IMG/VR virus record: IMGVR_UViG_3300009093_000034 | Coordinates: 156,632 to 220,631 of that record | Direction: 5' to 3' (one strand) | DNA: 64,000 nucleotides | Source: a virus | Part shown: positions 2,231 through 59,388 of the stretch, one piece after another | Layout of the letters: each line of letters opens with the position of its first letter | How positions within the stretch are numbered: position 1 is the stretch's first letter | The notes under the pieces: generated by a model | Databases searched by the model: none | Told to the model about the DNA's origin: nothing | What the model saw: only the letters and a program-made list of their open reading frames with translations | Position numbers and translations under genes: made by a program

Positions 2231-2743
2231 ATGGAAACGACTGTGAATACTGAGAAGAGATACTTGTGCGACAAAGAGACCTTCCTGGCTATGAAAGCCG
2301 AGCAGAAGGCAATCGCAAATGAACGTAAAACGGGAGACCTGCGCCGAAAGTACTGGTCAGACTTGGATGCTTGGAACAAGAAAAAGCCCTTCGTCGAACC
2401 AGAGCGTCACTACAAGACTGAGACGTGTAACTTAGGCCATGATCACACCACTTCCAAGCCTAACCCCAAGTATGGGGATTACCTGAAGGCTATGGAAGAC
2501 TGGAAGACCAGCAAGCCCATTGATGGGTCCGTGCTGAGCCACAGTGATCATTATGCCCGTGCGTTCAACATCATCTACGGCATGGTAAGGGGAAAGACTT
2601 ACCGGCAGATCGAGAAAACTTCGTACATGGGAAACCAGACTTGGAGAGACATGATTTCCGAGGCAAGGTCGATCATCAAGAAGTATGGTCTTGATTACCA
2701 AGAGTTCATGGACGTCAATGGAGGAGGATTCAAGAATGCCTGA
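2231..2743 (+). CDS. Hypothetical protein
   Basis: A 170-residue soluble protein, not recognised. A strong ribosome site (AAGGAG) precedes the ATG by 8 bases. The C-terminal third (GKTYRQIEKTSYMG and following) could form a helix-turn-helix, so a DNA-binding role is possible but weakly supported. Codons are more GC-rich than in neighbouring structural genes, as in other genes after the TGAGATATTGTA motif. It overlaps the PTH2 gene by 8 bases, implying coupled translation. Confidence 0.75.
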   Translation: METTVNTEKRYLCDKETFLAMKAEQKAIANERKTGDLRRKYWSDLDAWNKKKPFVEPERHYKTETCNLGHDHTTSKPNPKYGDYLKAMEDWKTSKPIDGSVLSHSDHYARAFNIIYGMVRGKTYRQIEKTSYMGNQTWRDMISEARSIIKKYGLDYQEFMDVNGGGFKNA

Positions 2744-3110
2744 TCCCATCTCCCAGAAGATCGTCGTGAACATGAAGGCAGGAATGCCCATTGGTCGTTT
2801 GGCGGCTCAGATCGCCCACGCCTCATGGCTTCCTATCATCGACAAATCGGAGTGGCACAACGATGAATTTCGTTTTGACACTACAGACTACCCTGGTTCC
2901 CAGTTGTGGTTGAAAGATCAATTCACGAAGGTTTGCCTCCGTGGTTGGGGAGATGAAATGCTCCTCGAGATCAAGGCCAAAGCTGAAGAAGCGGGGTTAC
3001 TTGTGGGTTTGATGGAAGAGGATGGTTTCTGTACCGCCTTAGCCGTTGGCCCCGGATATACGGACGAGATCGATAAGATCTTGAAACCGTACGCATTGCC
3101 TTTGCTTTGA
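2736..3110 (+). CDS. Peptidyl-tRNA hydrolase, PTH2 family
   Basis: A 124-residue protein matching the archaeal/eukaryotic-type peptidyl-tRNA hydrolase 2 fold. The N-terminal strand-helix KIVVNMKAGMPIGRLAAQIAHAS corresponds to the conserved K-x-G-K/R-x-A-A-Q-x-x-H-A segment, and the C-terminal TALAVGPGYTDEIDKIL to the T-x-x-A-x-G-P segment. Such enzymes release peptides from stalled peptidyl-tRNA so the tRNA can be recharged. The start at 2736 has GGAGGA 7 bases upstream; longer in-frame starts lie inside the previous gene. A terminator and then a tRNA gene follow at once, which fits a tRNA-maintenance role. Confidence 0.78.
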   Translation: MPDPISQKIVVNMKAGMPIGRLAAQIAHASWLPIIDKSEWHNDEFRFDTTDYPGSQLWLKDQFTKVCLRGWGDEMLLEIKAKAEEAGLLVGLMEEDGFCTALAVGPGYTDEIDKILKPYALPLL

Positions 3111-3114
3111 TTCC

Positions 3115-3141
3115 AAAACCCCTCGAAAGAGGGGTTTTGTT
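3115..3141 (+). terminator. Rho-independent terminator or processing hairpin before the tRNA
   Basis: A 10-bp stem, AAAACCCCTC / GAGGGGTTTT, with a GAAA tetraloop and a short T-rich tail. It ends 4 bases before the tRNA, so it may end the upstream transcript or protect an RNA processed from the tRNA precursor. Confidence 0.75.
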
Positions 3142-3144
3142 TAT

Positions 3145-3216
3145 GCTCTCTTAGCTCAGTGGTAGAGCCACGGTCTCTAAAACCGATGGTCACGGGTTCG
3201 ATCCCCGTAGAGAGCA
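3145..3216 (+). tRNA. tRNA with anticodon CUA (amber-suppressor type)
   Basis: A full cloverleaf can be folded by eye: 7-bp acceptor GCTCTCT/AGAGAGC, D stem GCTC/GAGC, anticodon stem CGGT/ACCG plus an A-A mismatch at 27-43, a 7-base loop CTCTAAA, a 5-base variable loop and T stem ACGGG/CCCGT with TTCGATC loop. Loop positions 34-36 are CTA, so the anticodon reads UAG. The anticodon arm resembles bacterial tRNA-Trp (CTCCAAA loop) with one base changed, but discriminator A73 differs from the usual G of tRNA-Trp, so the charged amino acid is uncertain. The 3' CCA is not encoded, and the phage carries a CCA-adding enzyme at 6723. Confidence 0.88.
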
Positions 3217-6722: not shown

Positions 6723-8111
6723 ATGAATCAGAAGGTAGTTGCTGGTACCATTGTCGCTATTCTCAAGCAGAACAACTTCGAAGGGTTCTTCGTGGGTGGT
6801 TGCGTTCGTGACCGCCTCCTTGGAAAGGAACCCAAAGATTTCGACGTTGTCACCAACGCTACCCCTGAACAGATCGAAAAACTCTTCCGTCACACCAATC
6901 CTGTTGGCCGCCAGTTCGGCATCGTTCGTGTCCTCATGGACGGACAAGAAGTCGAAGTTGCTACCTTCCGTAAGGACTCCTCGACTGGTGATGGACGCCG
7001 CCCTGACTCTGTTGAGTTCACTGATGCCGAGACTGACGTTCAGCGTCGTGACTTCACCATCAACGGACTTCTCGAAGACATCTCAAGAATTCCTGGTGAT
7101 CGGATCATTGACTTTGTCGGTGGTCTGGAAGACATCAAGAACAAGGTTCTTCGTTTCATCGGAGACCCCAACCAGAGGATCGAAGAAGACAAACTTCGGA
7201 TGCTTCGCTTCGTTCGTTTCATGGCCAATCTCGGATTCATGTCCATCTCAGAGCACATCGTCGCTGTAAAGCAAAATGCTCCTAAGATCATTTCGGTCTC
7301 CAAGGAGCGTATCACTGACGAAGTGACTAAGATGCTCTTAGGAAATGATCCCCGTGCTGCTATCGAGACCATGTCTGTTCTTGGTCTTCTTGAGCACACC
7401 TTGCCTGAGATTGATCGATTGATCGACAATCCTGAGGATCCGATCTGGCACCCCAACGAAACCACCTTCTCCCACACTTTGGATGTTGTTTCATCCATCA
7501 ATCGTGCCAATGATTTCTTGTTCTCTGGTGACAATGAGTTTATCAACAAGAACTTGAAGAACCTGATGTGGGCTGCTCTGTTCCATGACTCTGGAAAGCC
7601 TGACACTATCTCGAAAGAGATGAAGAATGGTGTGGAGAGAATCTCCAACAAGGGCCATGAGTTCGTGGGTGAGGATATCGCTCGCAAGGCTTTGAAGGAA
7701 CTCAAGTTCTCCAACGACGATATCGAGATCATCGCCGAGCTAGTTCGGAATCACATGATCCTTCGGAAGATTCCTGAGATGCGAAAGCACAAGCAGCGAA
7801 AGCTGCTGTCCAGCAAGAACTTCGATCTTCAGTTGGTCTTGTGTGTCGCTGACTCTGCCTTCATCCGCCCGGTCGATTGGGTGAAGAAGGTTCTTGACGT
7901 CAAGATGGCTTTGGAGGCTGAAGGTGAACTGATGCCTAAGCCTTTGATCACTGGAGAGGACTTGATCCGAGAAGGTTTCAAACCTTCGAAGTTGTTCTCT
8001 GTCGTTCTTGACCAGCTCTTCGACATGCAGCTTGAGAAGAACCTCGATAAGGGAACTCTCCTCAAGAGAGTTAAAAGTCTGATGAGCTCTGCAGCTGTGG
8101 AGGCCAAGTGA
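6723..8111 (+). CDS. cca: CCA tRNA nucleotidyltransferase / poly(A) polymerase family, with HD domain
   Basis: A 462-residue class II nucleotidyltransferase: GGCVRDRLLG (25-34) and DFD (39-41) are the polymerase metal motifs, RRDFTINGLL the neck/B-motif, and an HD phosphohydrolase domain with LFHDSGKP near 285-292 follows. The size and HD domain fit bacterial CCA-adding enzymes. It adds or repairs the 3' CCA of tRNAs; the phage tRNA at 3145 lacks an encoded CCA, so it would need such an enzyme. PcnB-type poly(A) polymerase activity cannot be excluded. The start at 6723 is set by alignment to the family N-terminus. It overlaps the next ATG (ATGA) and has GC-rich codons. Confidence 0.88.
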   Translation: MNQKVVAGTIVAILKQNNFEGFFVGGCVRDRLLGKEPKDFDVVTNATPEQIEKLFRHTNPVGRQFGIVRVLMDGQEVEVATFRKDSSTGDGRRPDSVEFTDAETDVQRRDFTINGLLEDISRIPGDRIIDFVGGLEDIKNKVLRFIGDPNQRIEEDKLRMLRFVRFMANLGFMSISEHIVAVKQNAPKIISVSKERITDEVTKMLLGNDPRAAIETMSVLGLLEHTLPEIDRLIDNPEDPIWHPNETTFSHTLDVVSSINRANDFLFSGDNEFINKNLKNLMWAALFHDSGKPDTISKEMKNGVERISNKGHEFVGEDIARKALKELKFSNDDIEIIAELVRNHMILRKIPEMRKHKQRKLLSSKNFDLQLVLCVADSAFIRPVDWVKKVLDVKMALEAEGELMPKPLITGEDLIREGFKPSKLFSVVLDQLFDMQLEKNLDKGTLLKRVKSLMSSAAVEAK

Positions 8112-58608: not shown

Positions 58609-59388
58609 ATGGAAGATCCAAAATTCATCCCATGCAGAAAATGTGTCTCAAAGCGTGGCCCGAAACCAGGTTACTTCTACTCCCAAGTTCAATGGGAGGG
58701 GAAGAGTTACATAGTTGCGGAAGAGTGCGATTGCCACAAAGAGTACATGAAGACCAGAACCTTCTATCACAAAGCTGTGATAGCTGGAATCTACCCTCAG
58801 TCCTTTGACTATGATCTAGACAGAGAGTATCAAGGAAAAAAGTCTCTTGTAAACGTAAGCAAACTCAAGAAGTATGCCTTAGGTTTCTCAGACCAATTTC
58901 CTGATGCCATGGTTTACATCTATGGACCAAACGGAACTCAAAAAACAACCTTAGCTCATTGGGTTGGTGCTCAAGTCATCTCACAAGGAAAGTCGGTCAA
59001 GTTCATCTTGATGCAGAACCTTCTTTCACTTTTATCTCGAGACCCTTTCAAAAAGGATGAAGAGACTAGTGATGAATTGGAAGCTTTGAACAGGACAGAC
59101 TTGATCATAGTTGACGAGGCCTTTAGTAGTGACAAGGTGACTCTATATAAGTCAGGCTATCAAATTCCTTTCTTAGACGAGTTCATTAGAGGTCGAATTG
59201 AAGGTCAAAGAAAAGGGATCTTGTTCATAAGTAATACGAACCCTGACCAACTTGAACCTCAAGGGTTCTCTCGGTCTATTCAAGATCTGGTGTCTCGTAA
59301 CACCATAGCTAAGGGAACAGCTTTGGAGTTTGTGGATAATTACATCCAAGAGAAGAGTAACTTCCCAGTTAAAGGGCTATTCGATTGA
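58609..59388 (+). CDS. DnaC-like helicase loader ATPase
   Basis: A 259-residue DnaC/IstB-type AAA ATPase. N-terminal CRKC ... CDCH (about 9-46) likely forms a zinc site, Walker A is GPNGTQKT (106-113) with Gln in place of the usual Gly before Lys, Walker B LIIVDEAF (near 164-172), then sensor FISNTNPDQL. The next gene is the replicative helicase, overlapping by 4 bases, which supports the loader role. Confidence 0.78.
   Translation: MEDPKFIPCRKCVSKRGPKPGYFYSQVQWEGKSYIVAEECDCHKEYMKTRTFYHKAVIAGIYPQSFDYDLDREYQGKKSLVNVSKLKKYALGFSDQFPDAMVYIYGPNGTQKTTLAHWVGAQVISQGKSVKFILMQNLLSLLSRDPFKKDEETSDELEALNRTDLIIVDEAFSSDKVTLYKSGYQIPFLDEFIRGRIEGQRKGILFISNTNPDQLEPQGFSRSIQDLVSRNTIAKGTALEFVDNYIQEKSNFPVKGLFD

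Follow-up and report, generated by a model that had tools for sequence, protein, structure and literature searches.

Suppressor tRNA genes with anticodon CUA have already been described in phages that use the standard genetic code, namely XacN1 (PMC5852040), RsoM2USA and the Delepquintavirus phages DLP3 and DLP5 (PMC7326821). In XacN1, whose authors inspected 18 amber stops, none emerged as a target of readthrough (PMC5852040). For crAss-like phages, the suppressors have been proposed to cause readthrough directed against the host (PMC11025619). The XacN1 and Atu_ph07 papers give PTH2 and the suppressor tRNA as separate items (PMC5852040, PMC6102473). The suppressor tRNAs of non-recoding phages have so far been without explanation, and the recurrent two-protein cassette described here makes them a testable system.

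The window, a 64,000-nt stretch of a 305,833-bp phage record, carries a tRNA gene with anticodon CUA, adjoined by a gene for a PTH2-type peptidyl-tRNA hydrolase-like protein and by a gene of an unnamed family that we call RGK. The tRNA is intact, TAG is kept as a stop, and the three parts recur together in many other phages, in some of which RGK and PTH2 are fused. The partner genes, absent from the preliminary description of this DNA, are the stronger finding. Judging from sequence, we give about an even chance to the suggestion that the RGK protein, the PTH2-like protein and tRNA-CUA, charged by a host synthetase, form a dedicated amber-suppression cassette.

ARAGORN and Rfam detected one tRNA with identical coordinates, 3145-3216 on the plus strand (RF00005, 68.6 bits; gathering score 29), and agree with the preliminary description on the loop CTCTAAA and the anticodon (CTA); neither called a different one. 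The ARAGORN label 'tRNA-Pyl' stands for the CUA anticodon and nothing more, and the intact fold with this anticodon marks a tRNA of amber-suppressor type. CCA is not encoded, and A73, noted earlier, is present. Its anticodon stem has 4 bp, A27.A43 being mispaired, and closes a loop of 7 nt. According to earlier work summarised in a 2026 paper (PMC13092985), CUA tRNAs in which the 27-43 pair is unpinned read through UAG more strongly and may read through UAA as well. Two exact-pattern IMG/VR scans for CUA-loop tRNAs gave us 109 loci, and a single-base variant of the first pattern, carrying the Trp anticodon, gave at least 120 control loci. Mispairing at 27-43 was found in 25/88 phage CUA tRNAs vs 9/98 Trp controls among the matches listed (p 0.001); the mismatch is not a fixed feature, because tRNA-CUA of the distant relative G002 has five pairs. 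The discriminator base over the CUA tRNAs is A in 35, G in 29, T in 21 and C in 3, and in the Trp controls G in 83/98 among the matches listed. With discriminators so mixed, it is less likely that the CUA tRNAs share a single conserved amino acid, and more likely that their function is suppression itself.

The likeness of the anticodon arm to tRNA-Trp, proposed in the preliminary description, is a fair reading, as tRNA-Trp of Ruegeria phage DSS3_MAL1 carries GGTCTCCAAAACC, but the best whole-gene match is tRNA-Arg(UCU) of a T5-like Klebsiella phage (~82%), and descent from tRNA-Trp may be only one option among others. Among other CUA tRNAs, that of Sinorhizobium phage Phosso matches best, at 87% over 60 nt. 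At this Phosso locus (L070:983-4151), ARAGORN reads the anticodon CUA in a tRNA annotated 'tRNA-OTHER', which has a CysRS gene on one side and, on the other, a gene for a class II synthetase-like protein of 250 aa. The tRNAs of the present phage (array G000:C1:108000-150200) cover nearly every amino acid. A CCA-adding enzyme of the tRNA nucleotidyltransferase type (6723-8111, plus strand; Pfam PolyA_pol, PolyA_pol_RNAbd and HD) is encoded outside the cassette and probably finishes the phage tRNAs. An RNA ligase gene at record positions 222433-223527 suggests tRNA repair.

Upstream of tRNA-CUA, the RGK-family gene (2231-2743; motif R..HIAY..RGK..EQIE) and the PTH2-like gene (2736-3110; Pfam PF01981, 2e-14) are both on the plus strand, the end of the first and the start codon of the second overlapping by 8 nt; the cassette, tRNA included, spans 2231-3216. 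For RGK, the PHROG comparison gave no match and the Pfam comparison no convincing one, and close relatives of the PTH2 protein were not found in the IMG/VR search. A perfect 11-bp hairpin (3114-3139, plus strand), terminator-like or a processing signal, lies 5 nt before the tRNA and is the strongest upstream of any of the 50 tRNAs here. The order RGK, PTH2, hairpin, tRNA-CUA is retained in G002 (170.6-kb record), where the hairpin is likewise the strongest among 26 tRNAs; the PTH2 proteins of the two phages are 40% identical and the RGK proteins 27%, and the G002 tRNA-CUA has a different body with the identical loop CTCTAAA. Just before the RGK gene, at 2136-2231, we observed a frame reading ATG AAG AAG TAG ... 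TAA ... TAG with a good ribosome-binding site. The small ORF MKK-TAG-TRATQPP at 2136 was rejected as a gene, having no clear coding signal and a codon score near zero, and the motif TTATACTA was rejected as a promoter, being strand-biased, yet with a frequency near chance.

With about 50 tRNAs in the phage, and with phage tRNA-Trp and tRNA-Arg only a few bases apart from tRNA-CUA, the latter could be a functionless member of a large collection whose anticodon has drifted. We consider this very improbable: tRNA-CUA stands outside the main array at 108-150 kb, its score ranks second among the tRNA matches of the record, its gene order is kept in a distant relative, its partners are recurrent and the same loop is found in different tRNA bodies.

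The recurrence of the partners was analysed in the CUA and Trp loci. The PTH2 and RGK profiles were refined by iteration on the very loci that they then scored, giving the CUA set some advantage; the Trp control loci are from other, often smaller contigs, and many loci are truncated. On this basis, 43/109 CUA loci have a PTH2-like ORF on the tRNA strand no more than 1 kb away vs 2/120 Trp controls among the matches listed (p 3e-14). Within 500 nt there were 27 such CUA loci and no Trp control among the matches listed. The contrast persists after similar loci are collapsed (39/89 CUA vs 2/94 Trp among the matches listed, p 1e-12), in loci with at least 1.3 kb of flank on both sides (32/57 CUA vs 2/82 Trp among the matches listed) and separately in loci with 0-1, 2-4 and at least 5 tRNAs, the controls again being those among the matches listed. 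PTH2 is upstream of the CUA tRNA in 34 cases and downstream in 12, on the same strand throughout. Where another tRNA is also present, the CUA tRNA is nearer to PTH2 in 14/27 loci, and the tightness of the linkage therefore varies. PTH2 does not stand beside a CUA tRNA in XacN1, SCTP-2, Atu_ph07, Myrna and Astolliot, so the linkage is not general to phage PTH2.

An RGK gene was found within 1.5 kb of the tRNA in 34/109 CUA loci vs 1/120 Trp loci among the matches listed (p 2e-11). Of the 109 CUA loci, 29 have both partners, 51 have either one and 58 have neither, many of the last being truncated. In six loci, RGK and PTH2 are fused into a single ORF that precedes the CUA tRNA, and proteins whose genes are fused usually work jointly. 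The model of the fused protein (pLDDT 95) has known-structure matches for the PTH2 half only, and a fold search with the RGK half matched nothing outside the PTH2 half; the cassette gives the unnamed RGK family a context. In DSS3_MAL1, the CUA tRNA is just upstream of the RGK gene.

Several other tRNA loci were observed in the course of this analysis. In Agrobacterium phage OLIVR1 (L355:2312-2388), a Val-annotated tRNA, to which ARAGORN gives an 8-nt loop (ccta), adjoins an RGK-family gene annotated 'putative structural protein'. A 608-kb viral contig has three PTH2-family genes and two adjacent CUA tRNAs (L023:4091-4256), of which one shows a long variable arm. Two further viral contigs carry tRNA-like genes of ~105 nt (L024:7631-7735; L025, minus strand, near 50-163), with an extra anticodon-like arm inserted between the CUA anticodon arm and the T arm, possibly reflecting introns or double-arm tRNAs. 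Structured-looking non-coding stretches lie between PTH2 and the CUA tRNA at L142:4850-5390 (minus strand), L188:5590-6010, L144:3670-4370 (minus strand), L314:2710-3330 (minus strand) and L329:8015-8420, that of L142 resembling a tRNA interrupted by a long insertion; these stretches are possible self-splicing introns.

The cassette PTH2 ORFs match the Pfam PTH2 family in 23/33 cases and phrog_1866 in 32/33, and their profile retrieves archaeal Pth2 structures. The window protein belongs to this group by both sequence profile and fold, since the leading PDB matches of its AF2 model (pLDDT 94) are Pth2, most with TM 0.7-0.8. The column that holds Asp in archaeal-type phage PTH2 is Glu in 30/33 cassette proteins, and the Thr near the C-terminus is retained in 31/33. 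The two columns correspond to catalytic residues of archaeal Pth2, and with Glu at the Asp column the hydrolase activity of cassette PTH2 is therefore not assured.

The changed column, from Asp to Glu, is in agreement with the PTH2-like protein being a putative deacylase that would strip amino acids off tRNA-CUA, making a suppressor with its own brake or timing. The tight linkage of PTH2 to one tRNA points in the same direction, as do the mixed discriminator bases, which could allow mischarging. We consider this doubtful, though plausible, because the known activity of the fold is on peptidyl-tRNA. That activity, suggested by the family match, would suit a counter-defence or rescue function, in which stalled ribosomes and peptidyl-tRNA resulting from host defence nucleases or infection stress are cleared and UAG reading is secondary; the RNA ligase and CCA enzyme of the phage would fit tRNA repair as well. 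A rescue function would leave unexplained why the partner is a CUA rather than a sense tRNA (Trp 2/120 among the matches listed), and we regard it as quite unlikely.

TAG is the stop of 28/394 genes called in the whole record by our own simple, unpublished caller, which has an overlap limit of 60 bp. This agrees with the low TAG use reported in the preliminary description, and five of the six TAG-ended genes given there are in our set (ends 25573, 26151, 40535, 56819 and 60827), the gene ending at 956 being missing because its 62-bp overlap with a neighbour exceeds the limit. TAG makes up 5.8% of stops here and 10.3% in G002, compared with ~28.5% in intergenic sequence; in three relatives that lack a CUA tRNA, the figures are 14-15% of stops and 17-23% intergenic. 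TAG stops are rarer in the two CUA-bearing phages (33/472 vs 126/858 in the three relatives without the tRNA, p 3e-5), a scarcity that is suggestive only, because base composition differs (GC 42-44% vs 29-31%).

UAG is not reassigned in the phage and the standard code is kept, as the preliminary description held in arguing against wholesale recoding. When TAG-opened ORFs were compared with the relatives, none spanned an in-frame TAG inside a common gene. TAG-through ORFs compared with two records of one relative gave TAG-spanning matches that were all in the wrong frame, and recoding on this basis was rejected. Among 55 reciprocal best hits with G002, TAG is the stop of three genes here and of five there, and in 0/55 it is the stop in both phages, so no conserved readthrough target was found. 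The G002 homologues terminate at about equal positions wherever the alignment covers the C-terminus. Sequence beyond the TAG stops is short or non-coding, except for two cases with the next gene in frame: the apparent 842-codon readthrough at genome position 293354 joins two separate genes that share a frame and have two TAGs between them, and that at 59147 enters the next gene, whose start is 6 nt on. The selective readthrough of particular phage genes that had been proposed is not borne out by these comparisons. The excess of backup stops after TAG (11/33 vs 75/439, p 0.03) was discarded as a signal, because phages that lack the tRNA show a similar tendency (45/126 vs 209/732, p 0.11).

A CUA tRNA is a hallmark of TAG-recoded phages (PMC13037316), and UAG might accordingly stand for an amino acid in some genes of the phage, as in code-15 phages. 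We hold such selective recoding to be extremely improbable: common genes have no in-frame TAG, homologues of the TAG-ended genes stop at about the same place, the phage has no release factor gene (no match to RF-1), and the code test flagged none of the CUA loci as TAG-recoded. A pyrrolysine system was ruled out, the synthetase not being found in the phage (no match to PF01409, PF00587 or PF00152). None of the four synthetase families compared has a match in the phage, no phage protein combines the HIGH and KMSKS motifs, and tRNA-CUA is therefore most likely charged by a host enzyme.

Under the proposed amber-suppression cassette, the phage CCA enzyme would finish tRNA-CUA and a host synthetase would charge it; A73 together with U35 would presumably allow lysine, judging by tRNA identity elements. 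The charged tRNA would compete with release factor 1 at UAG, leading to partial readthrough. The PTH2-like protein, together with RGK, may act on the peptidyl or aminoacyl form of tRNA-CUA or of other tRNAs, and this action may clear or limit suppression products. The effect would be mainly on host messages, because the phage seldom uses TAG. More generally, the distribution of these genes suggests, with the chances roughly balanced, that standard-code phages have a widespread and undescribed translation-interference system, in which the suppressor tRNA, a PTH2-subfamily enzyme and RGK would act jointly on host UAG termination.

In the open literature, with subscription papers and preprints outside the search, we found no paper linking PTH2 with a phage suppressor tRNA; the novelty is therefore provisional, and the new part appears to be the neighbourhood, the RGK and PTH2 cassette, and not the CUA tRNA itself. 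The TAG-recoded (code 15) phages, including Lak, crAss-like and jumbo phages with CTA tRNAs, share the CUA suppressor tRNA, whereas in the present phage TAG stays a stop. Archaeal and eukaryotic Pth2 (PDB 2zv3, 3erj and 1xty) share the fold, the sequence family and the conserved QxxHA and Thr, but in most proteins of the cassette Glu replaces the aligned Asp, and their genes are linked to that of a tRNA. Agrobacterium phage Atu_ph07 is also a jumbo phage with a suppressor tRNA, PTH2 genes and a tRNA nucleotidyltransferase (PMC6102473); its suppressor, however, is opal (UCA), and no annotated tRNA lies within 5 kb of the PTH2 examined. Xanthomonas phage XacN1 is a standard-code jumbo phage with 56 tRNA genes, CUA suppressors, a CCA enzyme and PTH2, but there the terminal repeats hold the suppressor tRNAs, and the PTH2, of archaeal type, is encoded elsewhere (PMC5852040). 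The Delepquintavirus phages DLP3, DLP5 and Summit are alike in having a CUA tRNA in an isolated standard-code phage (PMC7326821); the accessible part of that paper does not describe a link between RGK and the tRNA. PTH2 was not found in DLP5. In the Stenotrophomonas phage isolates DLP5 and Summit, 7 nt separate the RGK-family gene from the CUA tRNA downstream of it, DLP3 carries an RGK homologue, and these three together with DSS3_MAL1 are isolated phages for work on the cassette.
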